Source: Candidatus Poribacteria bacterium
GTDB taxonomy: Bacteria > Abyssobacteria > SURF-5
DNA length: 20,755 bases
Assembly (NCBI GenBank): GCA_016215705.1
Contig: JACRIR010000266.1
Span: forward strand, 1 to 20,755
Direction of reading: 5' to 3'
Shown one piece after another: positions 4,672 through 18,832 of the stretch (positions are counted from its first letter, which is position 1; every line of letters begins with the position of its first letter). The position numbers were made by a program, and so were the translations under genes. Below the pieces are notes generated by a model. That model did not search any database. It had not been told where the DNA came from and saw nothing but the letters and a program-made list of their open reading frames with translations.

Positions 4672-5346
4672 CTACTCCTGAAGGCGGGCGATGCATCGCA
4701 GGTCTTCGGTCTTCGGATCATTGACGAAGAACCCCACCGGATAAGCTTCCATTTCCTCCGCTGGATAAGGATGGAGGAGCGACAACAGGTGACCTCGTTC
4801 CTGGATTTCCGTACCAAGCCAGAGATCATAGGCAGCGTGCGGCATGATCACGGGCATCCGATCATGGAGCTGGGCGACCACGTTGTTCGCATCCGTTGTA
4901 ATCAGGGTGCAACTTTCCACGGGTGAACCGTCTGGTCCCTTCCACAGGTCCCACAGCCCGGCAAAAACGAAGAGGCGGCCATCTTTCATGCGGATGTAGT
5001 ACGGCTGCTTCCTGCGCTCCCCCTTCTTCCACTCGAAGAACCCACTTGCGGGAACGAGACAGCGCCGGCGCTGGAAAGCGTCCCGGAATGCCGGTTTCTC
5101 TGCCACAGTCTCGCCGCGGGCATTGATCATCCGGTTGCCGATCGAAGGGTCCTGCGCCCAGTGCGGAACGAGTCCCCAGCGCAGCCAGGCAAATTCCCTC
5201 TTCCCGGTTTCCGGAGAGACACGCACTGTGAGGATCGGCTGGGAAGGAGCGACGTTGTACCGGGGGGTTAAGTCGAATGAGATTGGAACGCCGAAGGCCT
5301 TTGAAAGAATGGCGTCAGAATCGAAGAGTGTGAACCGTCCGCACAT
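4672..5346 (-). CDS. yedK: SRAP-domain protein (YedK/HMCES type), abasic-site DNA-protein crosslinking
   Basis: The 224 residues cover a full SRAP domain. The start MCGRF puts the catalytic Cys at position 2, exposed once Met is removed. The other conserved residues are present: N31 (NVAPSQP), N75 (MINARGE), E105 (SGFFEWKK) and H161 (LHDRMPV). Members bind abasic sites in single-stranded DNA and form a thiazolidine crosslink that shields the lesion. Length and motif spacing match bacterial YedK. It runs convergent to the prophage lysis genes, with only 12 bases between the two stop codons, and divergent from the next small gene. No recognisable SOS box was seen. It could be a phage cargo gene or part of the chromosome flanking the prophage. 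Confidence 0.93.
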   Translation of the reverse strand: MCGRFTLFDSDAILSKAFGVPISFDLTPRYNVAPSQPILTVRVSPETGKREFAWLRWGLVPHWAQDPSIGNRMINARGETVAEKPAFRDAFQRRRCLVPASGFFEWKKGERRKQPYYIRMKDGRLFVFAGLWDLWKGPDGSPVESCTLITTDANNVVAQLHDRMPVIMPHAAYDLWLGTEIQERGHLLSLLHPYPAEEMEAYPVGFFVNDPKTEDLRCIARLQE

Positions 5347-7892: not shown

Positions 7893-9452
7893 CTAATCGG
7901 ACTTCAGTTTGCCGAGAGCCTTCTTTCTCATATACCGCCCGAACACCTCAAATAGGAGGCGGTCCTTGGACATACTTCCATCGTATATATTCACAATCGA
8001 CTTGGCGATTTCTTGGATGAGTTCCTTCGGGTCGATGTGAATGCACCTCCCATCAATAAGCTCTACAATGGCGGGTTTTCCACGTAAGCCTCCATCTATT
8101 CTGCTCTTAATCGATTCCAATCGCTTCTCCAGATGATGGACGTTAACAGATTTCCCAAAGGTTCTTTCGAGCTCCATCAACCGAGCCTGAGTTTGGTCAC
8201 AGAATTGCGCCAATTCATCTTTGTCGAGGATAAGCTGCATGCTGATGAGTTCTTCCAGCCTGTCAAGAGCGTTCTCGATAGATTTTTCTTTGCTTCGGAG
8301 TTTCGATGAAACCCGACATAGACCGCTTAAATGTCTGCATAGGCAATGCATCTGCTCAAGGAACATCTCGTATTCGGAGGATTGCTCAAAGCCATCGCGC
8401 CTGGCATTGGCTTTTACCGAATAATCGAGATAAATCTCTCCGATATGCCAAGCGGCAAAGCGTCTTTCGCTAAACAAATCGGCGAGGAAATACTCGTTCC
8501 CAATTTCGATGTTTCCTTGCCGGACCCGCAACCCTCGCATGGACACCTGCGGAGGTAGGGCTGCTTGAAATTTCGTAACCGCATACCATCCACGTCCCAT
8601 TTCTCGACCTTCTGGTCCTCTAATACCAAAGGTTTCTACCCCCTTTATCTCGTCTATGTCCTGACCGTGTAGGGGCACCTTATTGGTATGGGGACGGGCA
8701 ATCTTTTCTCCATTTAATGAGATGTTGTACGTGCGATACCCCGGCACATCGGACACATGGTTTCTAACCATCTTCGCAAATTCAAATTGCTCGTCGCAAA
8801 AATCAACAGGACCCACCTTTCCCAAAGAACCCGCAACGCTTTTTGGGTTCATCAATTCGTCCCGATGAAATCGGTGAACGCTCCTCATGGTTACGCGGAA
8901 AAACCGATGGGGATCACCGACCCGGGGTTTTGTCGCTTCAACAGAGACTGCCTTCTCGATGGCTTCTTCTGCCGATAGACCCTTTCCATTTTGGGAAATC
9001 AATTCCTGAAGCTTTTTACCATCCCAAATTAAAATCGACAGAGGTTCCGATTTATCGGCTCGTGTTTCGAATACTACCTGGTCGCAATATCCCAGGCCTC
9101 CCAGTCGTCCGATACCACGAAAGCCACGTTGCTTAAGACGCTCTTTTGGGCTGCATCCTAGGCAGCGTAACAGGGCTCCCACATCCTTTTGGGGAACCCC
9201 GGCACCGTTGTCTGTCACCGAGATACTGCGGTGGATGCCATCAATATTGATATCAATGTGCTCTTCGCCAGGAAGAAGGAGGCCGCGGTCGCAGGCCGCA
9301 TCTATTGAATCTGCGGCGTTTTGAACGTACTCCCGAACAACCGCAAGGGGATTGCTGTACATCCCAGCGGTAACAACGTCGATTATTTGGCTCCCAACGA
9401 CGAGTCCGGGCTCGGGGTTGATTTTGGCCGTGCCAGGTACATTTCTAACCAT
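7893..9452 (-). CDS. GHKL (HSP90/MORC-like) ATPase, last gene of the six-gene block
   Basis: A 519-residue protein with a GHKL ATP-binding domain at its N-terminus: N box with E41 and N45 (VVREYVQNAADSID), DNGAG at 81-85 binding the adenine, and a glycine-rich lid, GFRGIGRLGGLGY, at 110-122. The middle resembles the transducer part of HSP90/MutL-type proteins. About 385-470 is charged, coiled-coil-prone helix (ENALDRLEELISMQLILDKD), which may mediate dimerisation or partner contacts. GHKL proteins of the MORC/MutL type are known in restriction-like operons with helicases and nucleases. The ATG has GGAGA about 8 bases upstream, inside the radical SAM gene; the two genes overlap by 70 bases, so they should be coupled. 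Exact partner and substrate are unknown. It is not HtpG: the C-terminal half does not match. Confidence 0.8.
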   Translation of the reverse strand: MVRNVPGTAKINPEPGLVVGSQIIDVVTAGMYSNPLAVVREYVQNAADSIDAACDRGLLLPGEEHIDINIDGIHRSISVTDNGAGVPQKDVGALLRCLGCSPKERLKQRGFRGIGRLGGLGYCDQVVFETRADKSEPLSILIWDGKKLQELISQNGKGLSAEEAIEKAVSVEATKPRVGDPHRFFRVTMRSVHRFHRDELMNPKSVAGSLGKVGPVDFCDEQFEFAKMVRNHVSDVPGYRTYNISLNGEKIARPHTNKVPLHGQDIDEIKGVETFGIRGPEGREMGRGWYAVTKFQAALPPQVSMRGLRVRQGNIEIGNEYFLADLFSERRFAAWHIGEIYLDYSVKANARRDGFEQSSEYEMFLEQMHCLCRHLSGLCRVSSKLRSKEKSIENALDRLEELISMQLILDKDELAQFCDQTQARLMELERTFGKSVNVHHLEKRLESIKSRIDGGLRGKPAIVELIDGRCIHIDPKELIQEIAKSIVNIYDGSMSKDRLLFEVFGRYMRKKALGKLKSD

Positions 9453-10999
9453 TTTTTGATCTCTCCATCTTGAATATTTTGTAGGGTGGCTCTAACGTCA
9501 TCGATCGAATTGGAGCTTACCGCTTTATGAAAAGTCATAAACCGGTCGCCGTTTTCTTTGAGAAGTTTTAGGATGAACGCCCTAAATCCCTCGACTTTCC
9601 CAGATCCTGGTTTTCTCTTTGGTTCTTCCTTGTGAACCTTGCGTTCGTGAAGGTTTCTGTTTCGGATCAATTCCTCGGGCATGTAAAGGTTAGAGAGAAA
9701 CTCCTCAAACGTGTGCCCGATGGTACGCCATGCCAGCGATGGAGTGGGAGAGATCGCTCCGTTTGCGGCTCCTTTCATGATCTCGACGTTACGGAGGAAC
9801 CGCTTAGTCCAGATGGGTTCCCTCAGCCAATCTCGACGGGCATCCGTATCGCCGGCAATGATGTCCCGACCTTTATGGACCCCCCTGCGCTCTGGATCAG
9901 CAATTGGTGCAAATCGCATGGGGTAGCTGTAGATTTTCCCGGAACGCTTCTGGACTCCTTCTTTGGCCATCTCTTCGTTCAGCTCGATATTCACTTTCAG
10001 CCTTTGATAAAGATCTTCGGGAGTGTCGCGGAAATTGTACAGCATGTAGTTGGAAAATTTCTGAACACCATGCTTATTCGCCAATCGAATGGCACGCGCG
10101 TATTCCTTTTGCTCGCGCACGTGGTCAAAGGCAATCCGCATTGGCTCTATATTCAACTTGGCCAGAAGGGCCATTTTTTTCTCGGTGAAGTGCGTGGCGT
10201 CTAAACCTTGGTTAAAATCAATTACCCGCTGGCGTCGTGGGAACGTGTTGGTGTATTCATTTCTGCCGTAACCCAACTCAACAAGGTCGTCGACAATTCT
10301 TTCGAGCTCTGAACTACCCAGAAGATTGTTGTCCATTAGTTTAAGTACAGGAAGGTCCCCGCGTTCATCGCGCAGAGTCCGGATCGTGTTCCTAATATCG
10401 ATATAAGGAATGAACCTTGGCTCTAGCTTATGCACGCCGCAGTAGGCGCATTTATGTTTGCATCCTCGTGTGGTGTAGGCGTAAAAAGTATTTCCTATTC
10501 CGTAGGGGTATGTCTCCAAAATGCTGTAATCAGGTGGCAGCAAGTCTATTGATGTATTATCCGGCAGTCCAATCTGTCGTGCTGAATCTAATATCCCTGG
10601 TACGGGCAAGATCCCAGTTTCCCTAAATATTTCGTCACGCATCAAAGTCGCCATAATGCCGCCAACGAATATTTTGGAAGTGGTACCCCCCACAGCGTTT
10701 TTATAATAATTTATGGTTTTTACAACGTTGTTGAAATGAAAAGTAAAAAGAGTCGTTATATAAACTCGGTCCCATAACCTGGTAAATAAAGGTTTATCTA
10801 TGTATGCTTCTTTAAGGATCTTGGGGTCGCGGCCAACCACGAATTCCACGTGATGCCCGAGGGTTTTATGGTACCGCGCCAACTTCATTAACCCCAAGGG
10901 GGGGTACCATAGTGTCTCGTCGTCCGGCCGTTTGTCGGTCACGAAAGACCGCTTTGCGGACGTTCTTCTGAAATCAGGCTCGACCAAAAGGATTTTCAC
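9383..10999 (-). CDS. Radical SAM enzyme with N-terminal cobalamin-binding-like domain
   Basis: 538 residues. The N-terminus (MKILLVEPDF, then WYPPLGLMKLARYHKTLGH) looks like the Rossmann-type B12-binding domain of class B radical SAM enzymes, but the usual DxHxxG cobalamin motif is not evident. The radical SAM cluster motif is clear: C180, C184 and C187 (TTRGCKHKCAYCGV), which would hold a [4Fe-4S] cluster and cleave S-adenosylmethionine. The TIM-barrel part continues to about residue 400 (LKLMDNNLLGSSELE, FNQGLDATHF). The C-terminal 100 residues are basic and unfamiliar. It is not viperin-like. GTG 10999 is the start, with only a weak AAGAGG upstream. Its place between ParB-B and the GHKL ATPase suggests a role in the same system, perhaps modification of a nucleotide or base; the substrate is unknown. 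Confidence 0.82.
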   Translation of the reverse strand: MKILLVEPDFRRTSAKRSFVTDKRPDDETLWYPPLGLMKLARYHKTLGHHVEFVVGRDPKILKEAYIDKPLFTRLWDRVYITTLFTFHFNNVVKTINYYKNAVGGTTSKIFVGGIMATLMRDEIFRETGILPVPGILDSARQIGLPDNTSIDLLPPDYSILETYPYGIGNTFYAYTTRGCKHKCAYCGVHKLEPRFIPYIDIRNTIRTLRDERGDLPVLKLMDNNLLGSSELERIVDDLVELGYGRNEYTNTFPRRQRVIDFNQGLDATHFTEKKMALLAKLNIEPMRIAFDHVREQKEYARAIRLANKHGVQKFSNYMLYNFRDTPEDLYQRLKVNIELNEEMAKEGVQKRSGKIYSYPMRFAPIADPERRGVHKGRDIIAGDTDARRDWLREPIWTKRFLRNVEIMKGAANGAISPTPSLAWRTIGHTFEEFLSNLYMPEELIRNRNLHERKVHKEEPKRKPGSGKVEGFRAFILKLLKENGDRFMTFHKAVSSNSIDDVRATLQNIQDGEIKKWLEMYLARPKSTPSPDSSLGAK

Positions 11000-11142
11000 A
11001 ATATATTCAGCCTCTTATCGTTCCCATGTCCCATGCCTGGATATTCTTGCAGGCATCTTACCAACATTCCGGCGTTTTGTCGATCCCTTGTCGAAAAAAA
11101 ACGGACGGACTGACAGAGGGGATTCCCATGAGGGTCATGAGG

Positions 11143-11177
11143 TACAGGAAATCTGATTAACCGATGGTTTTCCTGTA
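11143..11177. promoter_or_regulatory. 9-bp perfect inverted repeat between ParB-B and the radical SAM gene
   Basis: TACAGGAAA (11143-11151) and TTTCCTGTA (11169-11177) are exact complements with a 17-base spacer, 13 bases downstream of the ParB-B stop. A second small palindrome (CATGA, 3 bases, TCATG, 11127-11139) lies beside it. No T run follows on the - strand, so a simple terminator is unlikely. An operator or an mRNA-processing hairpin are options. It sits in the only sizeable gap (190 bases) of the block. Confidence 0.45.
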
Positions 11178-11189
11178 ATTATGAATTTG

Positions 11190-12191
11190 CTATTTTAGTC
11201 GCTTTAGGATCTTCTCAATAGCCTCGTTGATCTTTTTTAACTCGTATACACACTTTTTTCTGTGTCCGTCTTCCATTTCAGAAAAATCACTCCTTGCATC
11301 ATCACTTAACAAAAATTCTCGAAATTTATGAAGGCGATTGTACCATTCATTATCATAACCCCTCGCGGACGCTCTTTCGTAAGAACGATTGAATGAGCCC
11401 TCTTTTTCAAGAAAATCGTTCAAGATACTGCCGCTTGCCTTCGCTATAATCTTTAGCTTTTTCCTTACTTCTATGGCTTCCCTTATTTCTCCTGTCTTTA
11501 TTTTTCGTACTACAGTTCTGTCCATATCCGAGTGACCTTCTCTTGCCTTTCTTATATCTCTTGATTTTATGTATTCATCATAAAAGCTCCACCGTGTCAC
11601 ATTGTTGTCGTTGTGCTTAACCATAAAACTATATACGTTAATAAGATGGCTCACTTCCTTTGGGCCAAGTCCCATTTCCTTTGCGATTTCGGATGGGTCA
11701 ATTCCGTAATTCTTATGTTGCCGGTATAAGTAACCTGCTTGCTCGTAGGGTGCCCAATCTTTTCTTCCAATAATGTGATATTTCCCAAGCAGAGCAAAGA
11801 CGAGTTCGTCCGGAATATCTTTTGGCAACAACATGACCTTTACTTTACCCCATTGGATTGCGTCAAATCGGCTCAAAATACGGTATGCGGCGAGTCGGCT
11901 GTTTCCTTCTAACACTACATAGTCCCCATCTCGGACGATAAGAGGGTCGATAAGCCCTCCATTTGCGCGAATCGAGTGAACAAGACGCTTAACATGTTCT
12001 AAGTCCGCCAATTTTCTCTCAATATCAGTTTGACCAAGTATATTGCCATCCGATGAAATTATTGAGTAGATTCTTGGATTTTCTGGATAGAACTTGAGTT
12101 CGTTCTGTCGCAAGAATCCAACTTTGACAGGAACCTTCCGCCTGCTAATAGTCAGAAAATCGTCCACCCAATGGTCACTCGGGACGGTCAT
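11190..12191 (-). CDS. ParB/Srx-fold protein B (ParB-like N-terminal domain plus HTH)
   Basis: 333 residues. The ParB N-terminal domain is recognisable from NPRI at 38-41, GGLIDPLIVRDGDYVVLEG and the EGNSRLAAYR segment from residue 95, the counterpart of ParB's GERRxRA CTP-binding box. A WAPYEQAGYLYRQHKNYG segment and a KorB/ParB-like helix-turn-helix (PSEIAKEMGLGPKEVSHLI) follow. The C-terminal third is lysine-rich helix. Proteins of this fold bind or hydrolyse nucleotides (ParB CTPases, serine kinases) or sense modified DNA (DGQHR/DUF262 relatives in phosphorothioation systems). It is not a chromosome-partitioning ParB: no ParA is present and the ends differ. It starts inside the helicase gene (17-base overlap) after a good AGGGAGG. 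The gene is clearly AT-rich. Confidence 0.8.
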   Translation of the reverse strand: MTVPSDHWVDDFLTISRRKVPVKVGFLRQNELKFYPENPRIYSIISSDGNILGQTDIERKLADLEHVKRLVHSIRANGGLIDPLIVRDGDYVVLEGNSRLAAYRILSRFDAIQWGKVKVMLLPKDIPDELVFALLGKYHIIGRKDWAPYEQAGYLYRQHKNYGIDPSEIAKEMGLGPKEVSHLINVYSFMVKHNDNNVTRWSFYDEYIKSRDIRKAREGHSDMDRTVVRKIKTGEIREAIEVRKKLKIIAKASGSILNDFLEKEGSFNRSYERASARGYDNEWYNRLHKFREFLLSDDARSDFSEMEDGHRKKCVYELKKINEAIEKILKRLK

Positions 12192-13674
12192 CGTTTCCCT
12201 CCCTGTCGATTTTCAGCACTGATTTAAGAATGTGTCCGAAGTCATAGGTCATTTCGGAGCGAAAGAATTCTTCTGTGATATCACCCTGAAGCAATTGAGC
12301 GGATAAATGCTTCGCATGAATCAAAGCACCTATCCACTCGTCAATGGAATCAGGCATGAGCAGATTGTATACATAGCACTCCTTGGCTTGAGAAATTCTG
12401 TGGATTCGATCTTGGGCTTGAAGATAATCATCCAGACTGAAGTTTCTGTCGTAAAAAATGACGTGATTCGCGACAGTGAGTGTGAGCCCCTCTTTTGCCG
12501 CCCCCGGGGTCGCCACCAGAAAGCCGATGTCGAGATCCTCAAGGAATCGTTTGATCGCTAAATTGCGCGCCTGTATCCCGAGGTGCCCGTGTACACGTAC
12601 AGCATTGTACTTGCCGAGTTGACCACACAACCAGTCGGCGTTTTCTGTGAAAGTGGTCCAGACAATTCCCTTCTCGTTTTTCGCCCTAATCCGCGTTACC
12701 AAGTCCAACAGGTGGTCGAGTTTTCCTGGTTCCCCTCGATATGCACCATCGATCATCGCTGGGTTTGAGGCGATCTGCACGAGCCGAAGTAATCGTTTCA
12801 GGATGTCGTCAGATCTGTCTAGCGTAGGAACACCTTCCTTAATTACGACAGCCTTGAGAGTATCCCGAACCTGTCTGTAGAGGTCGAACTGTTTATGTTC
12901 CCAGTCGCAGTAGATGTTTTGGTAATGTTTTTTCGGAAGGGATATCACTCCGCTATTTTTATTTTCTCTGACAGAGAATGCTGATATTCGTGTCTGGACC
13001 TTTTGCAGCCCGGCCTCGAATGCGGTTTGCAATCCCTCATCGTAGACAAGTTTGTTCGAGAGATCGACCTCTCGCTTGAAACGTGAAAAGTCATTACCGA
13101 GGTTTTCCCCTTGATCGAGGAAATACACTTGTGCCCAGATATCCTCCGGCCGATTGGCGACGGGAGTACCAGTCATGATCACTCTTTTCTTAAAAAAGGG
13201 AGCCAGTTCAAAAAATGCCTTGGTAAGATCAGTATCGGGATTTTTTATCTTTGTGGATTCGTCTAATATCACCCCGACATCCCGAGTCCGGAGAAACAGC
13301 TTGAGACGACGCAATTCTGATCGGAATACTTCATAATGTGCCAACATTGCCCGAGCTGGACTGTTGAAAGCATAGAAGTTTGCTGCTCTATTTTGCGTTA
13401 ATTCACGAGGGGAAATATGACTATGCATGGTCAACTCACGCTGCCAATTGACCAAGAGGTGCTTCTTCGTGACAAATAGCACTGTATCGACGACCTTCTT
13501 TTCCAACCAATAAATCATAAGGTCGATCGCGATCTTTGTTTTGCCAAGACCCTGTTCATGGAAGATTGCGGCATACTCGAGATCCTTGATCGCCTCGAAT
13601 GCCTCGTGCTGGTAGGAAAAAGCGCTTAGTTTTGCTTGGAGCTTAGGTTCGCGGTGGAGATGTATCTTCGTCAT
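12175..13674 (-). CDS. SNF2-family helicase/translocase (compact, 499 residues)
   Basis: Superfamily 2 motifs appear in order: motif I HEQGLGKT (39-46), motif II ILDESTKIKN (DEST at 138-141 in place of DEAH), motif III MTGTPVAN (167-174), motif IV IVWTTFTENADWL, motif V ATPGAAKEGLTL, and motif VI QAQDRIHRISQ (419-429). The spacing and the QAQDRIHRISQ form are diagnostic of SNF2/HepA-type double-stranded DNA translocases. There is no fused nuclease, methylase or zinc domain, so it is little more than the motor core. Such motors move along DNA to remodel bound proteins or to drive restriction complexes. It overlaps ParB-B by 17 bases and follows the small nuclease gene by 55 bases. No strong ribosome site precedes ATG 13674. 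Confidence 0.9.
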   Translation of the reverse strand: MTKIHLHREPKLQAKLSAFSYQHEAFEAIKDLEYAAIFHEQGLGKTKIAIDLMIYWLEKKVVDTVLFVTKKHLLVNWQRELTMHSHISPRELTQNRAANFYAFNSPARAMLAHYEVFRSELRRLKLFLRTRDVGVILDESTKIKNPDTDLTKAFFELAPFFKKRVIMTGTPVANRPEDIWAQVYFLDQGENLGNDFSRFKREVDLSNKLVYDEGLQTAFEAGLQKVQTRISAFSVRENKNSGVISLPKKHYQNIYCDWEHKQFDLYRQVRDTLKAVVIKEGVPTLDRSDDILKRLLRLVQIASNPAMIDGAYRGEPGKLDHLLDLVTRIRAKNEKGIVWTTFTENADWLCGQLGKYNAVRVHGHLGIQARNLAIKRFLEDLDIGFLVATPGAAKEGLTLTVANHVIFYDRNFSLDDYLQAQDRIHRISQAKECYVYNLLMPDSIDEWIGALIHAKHLSAQLLQGDITEEFFRSEMTYDFGHILKSVLKIDREGNDDRPE

Positions 13675-13729
13675 TATTTCTGTGCCGATACTTTATGGTC
13701 ACAGTGTTGATGAGAAATATGCAATATTT

Positions 13730-14137
13730 TTAACCCCGTAATTTTTCTAAAACGATGGTCTTTACGTCCTCAAGGTTTTCTTTCTTTTTGATGTATTTTA
13801 ATCGGTCCTTCGCCAGTGCTTCTACGGGCCATGGAACGGCGACAACAAGAAAGGATTGTGGGTTTAGCTTGCAGAATTTGAGGTAGGTTCGGAACTGACC
13901 CTCAGTATGTCGGTTTTCAAGATCCGCGGACGTCTTTGCTTCACCGATCACGATTCCGCCAGCATGAAGCGGGGCATACACGTCTGGGATAGCCTCACCT
14001 ACCTGAGGGGGCTTCGAATATGCGTTTCTGTCTGGTAAGTCCACGAGGATGTGCCTGGCCTCGCCGTTGAAGTGCATCGCTGCGACCCAATCGACAAGTG
14101 ATCTTACTAACCTCGTGTGGGATTCAGATTCCCCCAT
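13730..14137 (-). CDS. Small PD-(D/E)xK-type nuclease
   Basis: A 135-residue protein with the restriction-endonuclease-like core: D52 in IPDVYAPLHAG, then E66 and K68 in GIVIGEAKTS, 14 and 16 residues later, and a following Q81 helix (TEGQFRTYLKFC), as in many Holliday-junction-resolvase-like and VRR-type nucleases. It is short enough to be a bare catalytic domain. It probably acts as the cutting subunit of a larger complex with DNA specificity supplied by partners. It begins 4 bases after the ParB-A stop and precedes the SNF2 gene, so it is in the same transcription unit. The exact nuclease family and target (duplex, branched or modified DNA) cannot be read from sequence. Confidence 0.75.
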   Translation of the reverse strand: MGESESHTRLVRSLVDWVAAMHFNGEARHILVDLPDRNAYSKPPQVGEAIPDVYAPLHAGGIVIGEAKTSADLENRHTEGQFRTYLKFCKLNPQSFLVVAVPWPVEALAKDRLKYIKKKENLEDVKTIVLEKLRG

Positions 14138-14141
14138 CGTT

Positions 14142-15161
14142 TTAGTCGGACGATGCGATGTCCTCGCAAAGCCTTGTCAAGTTGTCCCTGGCCTCGCAGA
14201 ACCCTTCGTTTTCCGGTCCGTCAATGTGCGATCGCAGTCTCTGAAGCTCCCCGTAGGGCATGTTCAAGACGCGCCGGGATATCTCCCGCGCCAATTGTAT
14301 GAGCGAGGCATCACGAAGAGCTTGGTCCGGGGTCGGAACGTCTAAAAGTTTTATCGCTTCTTGTGCACCGTCACGCAGGAAGACTTCCCTTGCCCTCGGG
14401 TTCTCTAAGATCCCTGGTAGGCTCCGGACCGTGGACTGAGGAGAGAGGAGATGGCTCTTGACCCACCGGGCGAAATCATCCTTCGTGAACCCGGCAGCGA
14501 ACACTGCTTCGGTGATGCGTCGGCGTTGGAATTCCACGAATGAGCTGAAACGTGTTGGGTCGAATTGGTCGTCACTTTCGAGGAGGGGTCGGTAGTGCTT
14601 CTCCATGTCGTGGTAAGCAGCGATGTAATCTTGCACTTCCCGGGTTCGACCACCACTCAAGTCAACGATCTGGCTGTACGTCAGGTGTTCGGAGTTCCGA
14701 AGGTGGTTGAGGTACTTTGCTTTTGAGTATGGGTCCCATGCCCGGGGACCTACAAGATGAGCTTGGAGTCGAATTGCGTCTATGTCCGTTTGCGATAGGC
14801 CGTCATAAACCATCGCGGGAATCTGGCTCCAGTTCCCCTTGGCCTTTTGTTCGAGGAATTCCCGGTAAATGAGGGTTCTCGTGTTTCCCTCGATCACCAT
14901 GTGTTGTCCGCGCTCGTCCTTATTGACGATGATCGGGTGGATGATTCCCCCACTTGTCTTTATCGCCTCGCGGAGGCTGTGAAACGTGGTACCCCCTTCC
15001 CCTTCTGAATCATCTGCGGCTCCCAGTGCCATGCTCATCTGTTCCGCGGTGATGGTGCCACCGTACATCTCGAGCCACTTGGCGATCCTGGGATTGGCGA
15101 TGTCGAGCGCGATCTCCAGGACTGGAAGCGTTTCATACTTCGGCGTCTTCGCGCTATCCAT
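14142..15161 (-). CDS. ParB/Srx-fold protein A (first gene of the six-gene block)
   Basis: 339 residues from ATG 15161, chosen because AGGAGACCGCC precedes it; 11 further in-frame codons upstream lack such a site. It has the same architecture as protein B: NPRI (23-26), GGIIHPIIVNKDERGQHMVI, EGNTRTLIYR (91-100), a WDPYSKAKYLNHLRNSEHL segment and an HTH-like stretch (YSQIVDLSGGRTREVQDYI). The C-terminal half is unique. An insert of about 25 residues (GAADDSEGEGG, about 47-57) lies between strands. Like protein B it lacks a ParA partner and parS context. Likely a nucleotide-dependent DNA-binding or modification-sensing subunit; a ParB-type nuclease or kinase activity is an alternative. GC content is much higher than in protein B, so the pair is not a recent duplication. 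Confidence 0.8.
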   Translation of the reverse strand: MDSAKTPKYETLPVLEIALDIANPRIAKWLEMYGGTITAEQMSMALGAADDSEGEGGTTFHSLREAIKTSGGIIHPIIVNKDERGQHMVIEGNTRTLIYREFLEQKAKGNWSQIPAMVYDGLSQTDIDAIRLQAHLVGPRAWDPYSKAKYLNHLRNSEHLTYSQIVDLSGGRTREVQDYIAAYHDMEKHYRPLLESDDQFDPTRFSSFVEFQRRRITEAVFAAGFTKDDFARWVKSHLLSPQSTVRSLPGILENPRAREVFLRDGAQEAIKLLDVPTPDQALRDASLIQLAREISRRVLNMPYGELQRLRSHIDGPENEGFCEARDNLTRLCEDIASSD

Positions 15162-15261
15162 GGCGGTCTCCTGCTGATATTCAATCCAAGTCAATATCTA
15201 CCGGTTCTGGGCGTCTCCGGAATGTCCGAGAGGCCCTGCGTGACAAGGGGAATCGTATCAC

Positions 15262-15662: not shown

Positions 15663-17006
15663 TCAGGGTACGGCAGACGGCGCAAAAGGCGGTGCGTCAA
15701 GCCTACCCCGCCCGAGCACGATTACAGTGCAATGATTGATGGCACGCGTGACTGCGTTGTAGAGGAGCCTACGCAGTTGTTCGGGACTGCCCACGGCTGT
15801 ATGGGGCCAGAGGACTACGACATTCTGGAACTCGCGGTTTTTTGCGCGATGGATTGTCATCGCAAGGTGGCCCCTGTGCTGCCGGAACCCGAGGCGCGAC
15901 TGATTGCGCACGGCATCCCGGACAAACTCCTCCACGTGTGCGGACGTGAAGTCGTTCTGCCCCCGCACCCGGCGCAGGCGGTCCATGCGGCTGATTGCTT
16001 GAGCAACGGGCACATTGACAGCGAAAGGTAGGAGTACGGCGCAGAAGTCGGCATAGGTCGCCGCTGGAGGCAACTGGATGTCAGCGAGCAGCGCGTCGGC
16101 GATTTCGACATCCTGTATTTCCCAAGTGAAGGGAAACGGCCCGAAGGTCTGTCCATTCTTACGTTGCCATGTCCGGGTCCCAACGATATCGAGCGCGGCG
16201 CGCAGCGACGCATTCCCCGCATCCGGTGTGAGGATCGCGGTCTGGCCATTCCGCTGGGACATTTCATTGGCAATCGCCCATGCAACAAGTTGTGCGTTGC
16301 GGGCGTGGATTTCGAGAATCCGAAAGCCCTGAGCAGCCCATAACGGGTTTTGTGCATGCTGGCTCTGCGTGAGCACAGCCTTGATGTCACGCCCCTCTCT
16401 CACGGCGTTGGCTGTCGTGAGCAAGCCCCGCTGCTCTGTGCGCATGGGCTGCGTGAGGCGGTGGGTTTGACCAGCTCCTTCAAGCCAGCCCATAACGCCA
16501 GCGGTGTCCCGCCCATCGGCAAGACACTGGAATGCATCTGCGGCCGCGACGATGCTGCATGAACCAGCAAGCCCCTGAAGGATGCGTAGCCGGTGATCGT
16601 CGAGGTCCTGCGCTTCATCCACGAGAACGAGCGGAAAACTGGCCGCAACCCACCGCTGAACAGCGGGCGTTTCAAGAAGCGTAGCTGCCTGAAAGCACGG
16701 CCCGTCGAATTGATTGAGGGTGGCAGTTCGTTGAAGCACTGCTGCGTTGCCGGTCAGGAGGCTTCTTCGCCGTGCGGCCAGTGTGCGTGAGAACACATCG
16801 AATGTCTGGCACTCGAATCGGCGGCGGAACAGGACGTTCTGGCCAAGACGCGACTGCAGACGACGACGCGCGCCGTTCATGAAGGTTAGCGCCAGCACGC
16901 GGCGGTCGTCGCCCAGAACACCATCGCGAACGAGTTCGGCCGCACGGCCCACTACGTTGTACGTCTTGCCCGTTCCCGCTGCGCCTTCGAAAAGCTCCAG
17001 CGTCAT
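15663..17006 (-). CDS. gajB: UvrD/Rep-like superfamily 1 helicase, GajB-like (Gabija)
   Basis: 447 residues from ATG 17006. The frame extends 33 codons upstream, but that part lies inside the GajA-like gene, and MTLELFEGAAGTGKTYNVV is the natural start, with the Walker A at 8-15. Other SF1 motifs are LALTFMNGARRRL (Ia-like), LVLVDEAQDLDDHR (DEAQD 130-134), IVAAADAFQCL (III), AMTIHRAKNREFQ (V) and LLYNAVTRAI (VI, from about 414). The protein is compact, lacking the large inserts of housekeeping UvrD, as in GajB. In Gabija, GajB binds the GajA tetramer and is thought to sense DNA ends or termini and activate cleavage. The ATGA overlap with the upstream gene (17003-17006) is typical of the coupled pair. 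Confidence 0.82.
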   Translation of the reverse strand: MTLELFEGAAGTGKTYNVVGRAAELVRDGVLGDDRRVLALTFMNGARRRLQSRLGQNVLFRRRFECQTFDVFSRTLAARRRSLLTGNAAVLQRTATLNQFDGPCFQAATLLETPAVQRWVAASFPLVLVDEAQDLDDHRLRILQGLAGSCSIVAAADAFQCLADGRDTAGVMGWLEGAGQTHRLTQPMRTEQRGLLTTANAVREGRDIKAVLTQSQHAQNPLWAAQGFRILEIHARNAQLVAWAIANEMSQRNGQTAILTPDAGNASLRAALDIVGTRTWQRKNGQTFGPFPFTWEIQDVEIADALLADIQLPPAATYADFCAVLLPFAVNVPVAQAISRMDRLRRVRGQNDFTSAHVEEFVRDAVRNQSRLGFRQHRGHLAMTIHRAKNREFQNVVVLWPHTAVGSPEQLRRLLYNAVTRAINHCTVIVLGRGRLDAPPFAPSAVP

Positions 17007-18832
17007 GGCACGAATCTGAACACCTGCATCGTGGCAGTGGAGTCCGCGGGGACGCGCGCAAAGAGGCGAGGATTGGCATTCGCGGGATCGCGAAGAATAT
17101 CGCATAGCGCGCCGAGCAATTCCCCAATCCGCACGCGGCAGGCGGGGTTGCCCATCAGGGTAACTGCGGTGGACTCGTGCGTCGGCGCGTAGGATTTATG
17201 GGTCAGAAGGAAGGCGGTCAATTCGTCCGTTGTCGGAAAATTCCCGCTGAGCGCCGTGGCAAGAGATGCGCGCGCGTTTGCCTCGTCCGCGCGAGCAATC
17301 CAAGTAACAACGTCCTCCATTACCCAATCCTGGGGCCAGAAGACAACACACTTCGGGGGCGGCGCGCTAACCCTCACAGCCTCGAAATAGGCGCACCCGT
17401 CCGCATCACCGTCAAGGAGAATGCAGGGCCGCGAATGGACCTTGTTGATGATCGAAAATGTATCGGTGACCTTCGCGTCGATGGTGGGTACAATCCCCAC
17501 GAATGTAGAGAACCGCGACCGGTTACCCTGCGTGTCCTCCCATCCCTGCTGCAACTCGAGCGCGGTTTGGAGCGCTTCAAGCCATGCCACGTCCGACACG
17601 CCTTCAGGTATAAGAACACATTCTTGCATGAGGGAGGCAACCAGCTTCTGACGCCACGCATAGAGAAGATGCTGCTGGTGGTTCGTCGGGGCCGCCGGAA
17701 CGGTGTCCATGAGGGGTTTGGCCGTCAGAGTCCCGCTGCTTGTATCGATGAAGAGCGTATCTGGAGCCGGGAACATTGCTGCCACGATGGGGGAGTGCGT
17801 AGTCACGATGGTCTGGTCGCACAAAGCATTGAGGCGGTTGACGAGGCGCTTTTGCTGGGAAGGCTGGATGTGCAGTTCCGGCTCCTCGACGGCGAGCACG
17901 AATGACTTGCCGGTTTCCGCGCGGGCCTTGCCGAACTGTAGGAGCAGGAGAAGGCTTTGCAGCGACACAAGCCCCGTCCCCTGCCGCGTTGCGGGGAGCG
18001 TCGGTCCGGTCCCTTGCGTGAAATGTGAGATAACAGTTTCTAACACACTATCGCTGTCGGTTCTGGTCAGGCGGAGCTTGAGTTGGGGGGCGGTCGGCAA
18101 TAGCTGGCGCAATTCCTCATTGGCTGAATTCACGATGTCAGTGAGGCCTGGCTGGTTCTCTATCCGTTCGGCCTCGGGCGGGTTCCAAAGCCGGTCGCGC
18201 TCCGCGCGCACGGCCTGCGCAGGCATACCGCCGCGCGTGGCAACAACGCGGCGGAATAGTTCGGAGGAGAAGGAAATCCAGCGGTCCCACGTCCGCGACG
18301 CCGGGACAAGAAAGAAACCGAGTTCCTGCAAGGTTTTGGTGTGCACCGTCCGGAGATGGGCGTTTTCAGCGAAGGGATCGCCGAGAGTGCCTTCATCGTC
18401 CACGAAAAATCGGACGGTCTCGGCTTCGAGTTCGTCGATATCAAACCGGGCGGCAAAGCCAATCTGAACGGCAAGCTCCGTGTGCTGTGCATCCGGGGCT
18501 GCGCTCAAGGTCTTTACGTTCGGATCGATCCATTTCTCGACGCCGCGTTCCAGACCGAACCACGCAGCATTGTGCTGCGGATCGTTATGTGGAAATCCCG
18601 TGACAGTTGCGACGATCGTGATACGGGCGGCCGCATCAGGGGCGCTGCCATGAAAATCATGCTCCGTGAGGCGACGCACCAAGCGGTCGCGCCCGAAAAG
18701 AAGAGACAGTGCTTCGATTATGGTAGTCTTGCCGCTGTTATTCGGACCGACCAGAACAACATGACGCCCGAGCGCGATGTCCGCGGATCGAACACCTCTG
18801 AAACCAACGATTGTTAATCGGGCAATATGCAT
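17003..18832 (-). CDS. gajA: OLD-family ATPase / TOPRIM endonuclease, GajA-like (Gabija)
   Basis: 609 residues. The N-terminal ABC-type ATPase has Walker A GPNNSGKTT (29-37), a signature-like region around RQGTGLVSLQSLLLLL (283-298) and Walker B VLAVEEPELHI (312-322), followed by TTHSP (344-348). A C-terminal TOPRIM domain carries E410 (LIPEGVSDVAWLEAL) and D474/D476/D478 (ILLDGDADG), the metal-binding acidic residues of OLD nucleases. This two-domain layout matches GajA, the nuclease of the Gabija anti-phage system; the protein is slightly longer than the known B. cereus one. A UvrD-like helicase gene overlaps its stop, which separates Gabija from lone OLD proteins and from PARIS. The region is the most GC-rich in the window. 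Only a weak ribosome site (GGTGAC) precedes ATG 18832. Confidence 0.85.
   Translation of the reverse strand: MHIARLTIVGFRGVRSADIALGRHVVLVGPNNSGKTTIIEALSLLFGRDRLVRRLTEHDFHGSAPDAAARITIVATVTGFPHNDPQHNAAWFGLERGVEKWIDPNVKTLSAAPDAQHTELAVQIGFAARFDIDELEAETVRFFVDDEGTLGDPFAENAHLRTVHTKTLQELGFFLVPASRTWDRWISFSSELFRRVVATRGGMPAQAVRAERDRLWNPPEAERIENQPGLTDIVNSANEELRQLLPTAPQLKLRLTRTDSDSVLETVISHFTQGTGPTLPATRQGTGLVSLQSLLLLLQFGKARAETGKSFVLAVEEPELHIQPSQQKRLVNRLNALCDQTIVTTHSPIVAAMFPAPDTLFIDTSSGTLTAKPLMDTVPAAPTNHQQHLLYAWRQKLVASLMQECVLIPEGVSDVAWLEALQTALELQQGWEDTQGNRSRFSTFVGIVPTIDAKVTDTFSIINKVHSRPCILLDGDADGCAYFEAVRVSAPPPKCVVFWPQDWVMEDVVTWIARADEANARASLATALSGNFPTTDELTAFLLTHKSYAPTHESTAVTLMGNPACRVRIGELLGALCDILRDPANANPRLFARVPADSTATMQVFRFVP

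Follow-up and report, generated by a model that had tools for sequence, protein, structure and literature searches.

A radical SAM enzyme with exchangeable partner modules in a six-gene block of Candidatus Poribacteria: a candidate restriction-modification-like system

The DNA stretch of 20,755 nucleotides analyzed here (hereafter the window; contig JACRIR010000266.1 of assembly GCA_016215705.1, assigned to a Candidatus Poribacteria bacterium) contains a block of six genes on the minus strand. In the order of transcription, they encode a ParB-fold protein (ParB1), a small predicted PD-(D/E)xK nuclease, a SNF2 motor, a second ParB-type protein (ParB2), a radical S-adenosylmethionine (SAM) enzyme and a GHKL ATPase. 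Comparison with related loci reveals a hub, the radical SAM(-GHKL) unit, that is joined to exchangeable partner modules, of which the ParB-nuclease-SNF2-ParB genes of the window are one. We give an even chance to the reading that the block is a mobile restriction-modification-like system, acting in defense or in the exclusion of plasmids or phages, with a DNA mark made by the radical SAM enzyme. This reading is favored because the enzyme occupies the place expected of a DNA-modification enzyme. According to this model, the B12-type radical SAM enzyme, aided by the GHKL ATPase, would chemically modify the DNA of its own cell with a protective mark. The two ParB-fold proteins, which bear a helix-turn-helix (HTH), would lead the radical SAM enzyme as well as the restriction pair to DNA and thus provide specificity, the SNF2 motor would travel along unmarked DNA, and the small nuclease would cut it, by which phages or plasmids might be stopped.

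When 84,980 species genomes were scanned with an alignment, 248 relatives of the radical SAM enzyme emerged, the best 80 of which were kept, and 86 radical SAM loci (our numbers, L) were mapped with hidden Markov models, using mechanical gene calls in the fetched loci. Some loci come from contigs of metagenome-assembled genomes (MAGs) and some are near-copies (L036/L037, L025/L026, L057/L058/L066), so that the counts slightly overstate the number of independent events. All six families occur together in 22 of the 86 loci. A SNF2-plus-ParB core is present in 35 and spans at least nine phyla (Pseudomonadota, Bacillota, Nitrospirota, Planctomycetota, Thermodesulfobacteriota, Spirochaetota, Acidobacteriota, Chloroflexota and Elusimicrobiota) in addition to a Parcubacteria MAG. 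Such recurrence in unrelated genomes had been set as a test by the initial annotation of the window, and it leaves a chance adjacency of unrelated mobile-element genes with a negligible probability, so that we reject this explanation. The annotation had missed, however, that the core conserved among the loci is the radical SAM(-GHKL) pair and not the full set of six. It had also overlooked a seventh family, a DndB-type gene (Pfam DndB, E-value 2e-11), which accompanies 12 of the 35 core loci and is absent from the window. DndB-type (DGQHR), radical SAM and GHKL genes stand in a row in plasmid neighborhoods of Novosphingobium, Roseomonas, Bradyrhizobium and Rhizobium, and plasmid pR132505 of R. 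leguminosarum WSM1325 shows the full gene order of the window, plus a DndB-type gene between ParB2 and the radical SAM gene.

Because the mapped loci had been found via the radical SAM enzyme, linkage was also tested in reverse, with ParB1 and SNF2 as queries. Each query matched seven plasmid records out of 72,556, and these lie without exception within the 16 records that bear the radical SAM gene (hypergeometric probability 5e-27, assuming independent records, which these are not). In viral contigs found via ParB1, a radical SAM gene stands beside the module in nine of nine cases, including one divergent copy at 64 bits. The ParB-nuclease-SNF2-ParB module is near-obligately linked to radical SAM. 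The divergent protein (L098), encoded ahead of a ParB-nuclease-SNF2-ParB module, suggests that enzymes of a different radical SAM subfamily can serve this module as well. The system is rare: among 385 genomes of the Nitratireductor class a single one yielded ParB1, and among 60 relatives of the window's genome 3 yielded the radical SAM enzyme. Two of the mapped loci, from a Bacillota MAG (L036) and a Desulfobacterales MAG (L037), are practically identical over 15 kb, which reflects either a recent transfer or binning contamination. A gene with a PIN_8 domain and a second GHKL ATPase gene adjoin the radical SAM module in several loci (L002, L004-L006, L057, L058, L061, L065-L067, L071, L082, L083), often on the opposite strand.

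This distribution also bears on the question of who benefits. With the same chemistry, the system might serve a mobile element instead of host immunity, either by letting a plasmid or prophage exclude its rivals or by protecting the element's DNA on entry. The loci are carried by conjugative plasmids and proviral contigs, with integrase and toxin-antitoxin genes nearby, and ParB/Srx proteins take part in plasmid conflict according to the account of Maindola et al. (2014) given in PMC10853773. Chromosomal contigs in many phyla carry the system too, however, and in the window a Gabija pair lies beside the block. We assign a small probability to a benefit for the mobile element.

The partners of the hub comprise the ParB-nuclease-SNF2-ParB module, PbeA/C/D, DrmA/DrmB, a long DndB-HEPN protein and an unclassified pair. 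Operons of the Pbe type match the PADLOC profiles PbeA (2e-222), PbeC (6e-163) and PbeD (1e-4). Genes of these types adjoin the radical SAM gene in L011, L013, L020, L024-L029, L034, L042, L047 and L049, mostly together with a gene for a large protein with an RNA polymerase alpha-CTD (C-terminal domain)-like domain (cluster C10). Operons of the Drm type match DrmA (3e-161) and DrmB (5e-51) of PADLOC and contain NERD-UvrD helicases. In L019, L023, L040, L046 and L051-L053, the radical SAM gene, mostly with a GHKL gene, is found with DrmA/DrmB homologues and UvrD or NERD-UvrD helicases. These loci apparently represent a DISARM-like system in which radical SAM replaces the methyltransferase that usually accompanies DISARM modules. 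No DNA methyltransferase family is among the 25 commonest families listed for the Pbe- and Drm-type radical SAM loci. According to Rakesh et al. (PMC10853773), Pbe/CxC modules elsewhere accompany genes for phosphorothioation or cytosine methylases. A third alternative to the ParB-nuclease-SNF2-ParB module, which loci of these kinds lack, is the long DndB protein, which on pNL1 has a Swt1-type HEPN end, and a fourth is the unclassified pair (clusters C20 and C21). In L041, L077, L078 and L079, two uncharacterized families of about 364 and 558 amino acids precede GHKL-radical SAM-GHKL genes, and the one library searched with each family gave no match.

Exchange of these modules is evident from a tree quickly built for 75 radical SAM proteins, on which the partner label changes at least 18 times, with well-supported branches alone forcing 11 changes for the ParB-nuclease-SNF2 label. 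In places the exchange has been recent, as 88-89% identical enzymes differ in their module (L063/L072 and L084/L073): L063 and L084 are accompanied by ParB-nuclease-SNF2-ParB and L072 and L073 by a long DndB protein.

The pairing of ParB and radical SAM extends to phages. A search of viral contigs for close relatives with a single radical SAM sequence gave no match, while short radical SAM homologues are common there (468 stretches with an alignment query). At least 11 of the 65 phage-type loci inspected have a ParB_N gene of about 200 amino acids on the upstream side of the radical SAM gene, either overlapping it or directly adjoining it (pairs on the viral contigs L123-L125, L127, L128, L132, L133, L135, L137, L139 and L166). 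The large genes downstream of the phage pairs encode terminase large subunits in three of three tested cases. Five of the paired ParB proteins were tested, and each of them matches the ParB portion of phrog_498, whose annotation as DNA methyltransferase stems from a methyltransferase that is fused to ParB in this family. A ParB-methyltransferase fusion of this kind follows the radical SAM gene in L181. Since the phage ParB corresponds to the ParB half of these fusions, radical SAM occupies the place of the DNA-modifying enzyme beside ParB. The phrog_498 fusions resemble the window in pairing a ParB_N domain with a nucleic-acid-modifying enzyme. In the window and in many phages, by contrast, the partner of ParB is radical SAM, encoded by a separate gene. 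The phage pairs possibly serve self-marking of phage DNA or anti-restriction.

The initial annotation had proposed that radical SAM makes or edits a nucleotide mark, that the ParB proteins read it, and that the SNF2 motor and the nuclease attack unmarked DNA. This proposal is supported in part: the swaps of restriction modules and the phage ParB pairing lend indirect support to marking by radical SAM and attack by motor and nuclease, with the mark, its reading by ParB and a restriction of phages being putative. A wider proposal, which falls somewhat short of an even chance, is that a whole superfamily of immune systems relies on a B12-type radical SAM enzyme for its modification step. The enzyme would make a novel ParB-guided DNA mark and would have been plugged repeatedly into restriction modules (ParB-nuclease-SNF2-ParB, PbeACD, DrmAB and DndB-HEPN), while phages would escape by marking their genomes with ParB-radical SAM pairs. 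If true, this would add a new class of DNA modification chemistry to bacterial immunity, radical-based and possibly cobalamin-dependent. It would explain why the same radical SAM family stands beside DISARM-like, Pbe-like and DndB-like modules and give a reason why many phages keep a ParB-radical SAM pair near their terminase genes. It would also offer a testable role for ParB-fold proteins beyond the partition of chromosomes and plasmids, and it predicts a radical SAM-dependent mark on the host DNA of carrier bacteria.

The radical SAM protein of the window matches the Pfam families Radical_SAM (2e-6) and B12-binding (8e-5) and contains the motifs CxxxCxxC (10439-10462), YPPLGLMK (10883-10906) and DFNQG (10205-10219), with the three cysteines of the first invariant across 69-75 homologues. 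Its structural model (predicted local distance difference test, pLDDT, 88) combines a B12-type Rossmann domain with a radical SAM barrel. Judged from motif, domain and model, the protein is assigned to the B12-type radical SAM class and may bind cobalamin. The nearest solved folds are AprD4 (Z 16.3), MgmA (16.1), TsrM (14.5), MiaB (14.1), OxsB (13.5) and CysS (12.8). AprD4, MgmA, TsrM and MiaB have the same combination of Rossmann B12-type domain and barrel as the window enzyme, but share only 13-16% identity with it and act on a sugar, a protein, tryptophan and tRNA, respectively. Several of the nearest-fold enzymes bind cobalamin, whereas AprD4 and MiaB do not, and the fold therefore leaves both cofactor and substrate undecided. 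The C-terminal extension of the long Firmicutes radical SAM proteins has no similarity to ParB, DndB or nucleases.

The main rival explanation sees in the radical SAM-GHKL pair an effector or signal generator rather than a marker of self DNA. On infection, the pair would make an altered nucleotide, comparable to the 3'-deoxy-3',4'-didehydro-nucleoside triphosphates (ddhNTPs) made by viperins, or would have a protein or tRNA as the target of modification. The exchanged modules would then serve as alternative sensors or extra effectors. Modular exchange is also typical of effectors, GHKL proteins elsewhere act as sensors or chaperones, and related loci have HEPN and PIN partners, both of which are RNase folds. 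Viperins are among the structural neighbors of the enzyme as well, though low (Z 8.7-8.9, over the barrel). The B12-type N-terminal domain and the overall fold are, however, nearer to MiaB, TsrM and MgmA than to viperin, the ParB-radical SAM pairs of phages parallel the ParB-methyltransferase fusions, and two established restriction cores are among the partners. Overall, we regard the effector explanation as unlikely.

Several observations weigh against the restriction-modification-like reading nonetheless. Exchangeable partners would also fit a shared effector, and the substrates of the near structural neighbors of the radical SAM enzyme range from tRNA and protein to sugars and small molecules. 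A few genes with methyltransferase domains lie near some loci, where a second modification enzyme may exist. The GHKL gene, which lies directly 3' of radical SAM in 57 of the 86 loci, is absent downstream in the other 29 and is therefore not essential to every version. Defense families account for roughly a dozen of 141 flank genes as compared to about 7 of 126 control genes, according to our reading of the family lists, a difference on which we base no claim. Lastly, the six genes are absent from PADLOC as a system, so that no label rests on experiment.

The fold assignments of the initial annotation hold for all six proteins, based on profiles for five of them and on homologue motif and structural model for the nuclease. 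Both ParB1 and ParB2 match ParB_N weakly in Pfam (E-values 0.002-0.007). ParB1 contains an EGNTR motif (14877-14891) and a AHLVGPRAWDPYSKA box (14718-14762), and its profile matches the Noc structures 7ol9/7nfu across the ParB and HTH region. ParB2 matches TIGR00180 (E-value 7e-8, covering residues 58-186), contains EGNSR (11895-11909) and YHIIGRKDWAPYEQA (11736-11780), and is 41-56% identical to its closer homologues. By these sequence features, the architecture of ParB partition proteins, ParB_N followed by HTH, is recognizable in both. A variant of the module in L004, L009, L065 and L076 has three tandem ParB1-type genes and no separate ParB2.

The resemblance of the ParB and HTH architecture to Noc would also fit a DNA maintenance or repair complex, in which damaged or segregating DNA would be the target of ParB, SNF2 and nuclease, and radical SAM would repair or edit a lesion. 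SNF2 and EndoMS-like nuclease folds occur in repair too. The patchy presence of radical SAM and ParB1 among related genomes, the carriage by plasmids and proviruses and the coupling to Pbe and DrmAB modules make this explanation improbable.

The protein of 135 amino acids that we interpret as nuclease had no match among Pfam, NCBIfam, PADLOC and PHROGs models or PDB sequences. Its motif P-D-x13-E-x-K (13934-13987) is conserved in 27-29 homologues: P51, D52 and A67 are invariant, and at least 90% of the sequences keep E66 and K68. Among the best structural matches of its model (pLDDT 93.5) are PD-(D/E)xK nucleases (EndoMS, Nt.BspD6I, Can2, PaqCI and LmuA; best Z 7.4). A Z of about 7 is weak alone, but joined with the conserved motif it makes the prediction of a PD-(D/E)xK nuclease convincing. 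The SNF2 protein matches SNF2-rel_dom (4e-22) and Helicase_C (5e-16) of Pfam and contains Walker A GLGKT (13537-13551), DES (13255-13263) and QAQDRIHRISQ (12388-12420). Its closest phage family is phrog_62 (DNA helicase, 8e-84), and its best PADLOC matches are ZorD (6e-43) and DpdE (1e-24). The GHKL protein matches HATPase_c_3 (1.6e-8) and contains the N-box (9300-9332), DNGAGV (9195-9212) and GFRGIGR (9105-9125).

The six open reading frames (ORFs) have no internal stops, and the catalytic motifs are intact in all six translations. They are spaced, in the order of transcription, by +4, +55, -17, +190 and -70 bases, and the ORFs, strand, places, gaps and overlaps all agree with the initial annotation (Table 1).

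Table 1. Genes and gap of the six-gene block (positions in the window)
Feature	Position	Strand	Remarks
ParB1 gene	14142..15161	-	ParB/Srx fold and ParB-type HTH region; alternative TTG start possible at 15194
Nuclease gene	13730..14137	-	predicted small stand-alone PD-(D/E)xK, 135 amino acids; homologue motif, model and structural matches
SNF2 gene	12175..13674	-	SNF2-family motor without extra domains; Pfam
ParB2 gene	11190..12191	-	second ParB-type protein; TIGR00180, homologue identity, motifs
190-base gap	11000..11189	-	no ORF in the window; DndB-type (DGQHR) gene at this place in some relatives
Radical SAM gene	9383..10999	-	N-terminal B12-binding-type domain and radical SAM; GTG start
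GHKL gene	7893..9452	-	Hsp90/MutL-type ATPase; 70-base overlap with the end of the radical SAM gene

The guanine-cytosine (GC) content drops to about 42-51% across roughly 8.0-14.0 kb of the block, compared to about 60% on either side, which suggests that the block arrived separately from the flanking Gabija genes. Promoter and terminator counts showed no excess over shuffled sequences. The Gabija pair lies upstream of the block (15663-18832), where PADLOC profiles identify the OLD-type ATPase-nuclease GajA (9e-48) and the UvrD helicase GajB (4e-16). The pair is divergent, with a GajA of 609 and a GajB of 480 amino acids, the genes overlapping by 103 bases, and has a GC content of about 60%, unlike the block. 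The argument for a typical defense island, as drawn initially, is weak: Gabija adjoins the block, but the flank and control counts given above are not clearly separated. A DDE transposase gene (Pfam) is found downstream of the block, with no convincing terminal repeats of an insertion sequence around 5.9-7.7 kb. Between the phage-like genes and this transposase lies a SRAP gene (SOS-associated peptidase, HMCES-type; 4672-5346), and a SOS-associated peptidase gene is also found near the radical SAM locus of pNL1 (L002).

With regard to known systems, the view that the block belongs to no named one holds against PADLOC 2023, none of whose systems it fits. The gene combination is not described in the open-access papers that our search covered, subscription papers and supplements being outside it, and a link to radical SAM is absent from the text of PMC10853773 (Dnd/Pbe), PMC12458937 (YprA helicases) and PMC12839542 (BREX). 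The six-gene set is thus conserved and apparently undescribed, its novelty being provisional. The HEPN survey PMC3710099 lists a ParB-HEPN protein, Saro_3948, that is probably the long DndB-HEPN partner of radical SAM on pNL1. A partner of this type replaces the ParB-nuclease-SNF2-ParB module of the window and is not part of it.

Zorya was rejected because only the SNF2 protein has a match (ZorD), with no counterpart of the PADLOC profiles ZorA and ZorB among the six proteins. The SNF2 protein is ZorD-like as in Zorya type I, but single-domain, and the ZorA/ZorB motor is absent. Dpd was rejected in the same way, the SNF2 protein being similar to DpdE and DpdA/B/C being absent from the six proteins (PADLOC). 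DISARM was rejected as no DrmA or DrmB match exists among the six proteins and DrmD appears only as generic SNF2 similarity. DISARM, ARMADA, Dpd and Druantia, which use YprA helicases (PMC12458937), are likewise multi-gene helicase systems and normally include DNA modification, and some radical SAM relatives sit in operons with DrmA/DrmB homologues. The block of the window differs from them in having no DrmA, DrmB, YprA homologue or methyltransferase.

With Dnd, the window has ParB/Srx-fold proteins in common, and a DndB-type gene accompanies many relatives, but the window contains no DndA, DndC, DndD, DndE or even DndB-type gene. Pbe homologues, known from PbeABCD and CxC ABC-ATPase-DndE systems (PMC10853773, PMC6459918), stand beside this enzyme in other genomes and are lacking in the window. 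Phosphorothioation by Dnd/Pbe was rejected because neither DndC/DndD/DndE nor PbeC with DndE was detected among the six proteins (PADLOC, Pfam). Classical restriction-modification was rejected because none of the six matches a SAM-dependent methyltransferase (Pfam, PADLOC, NCBIfam), while its restriction nuclease has a counterpart in the PD-(D/E)xK motif and fold, with predicted activity. By analogy, we posit that the block may work like a modification-based restriction system, yet it is not filed as one.

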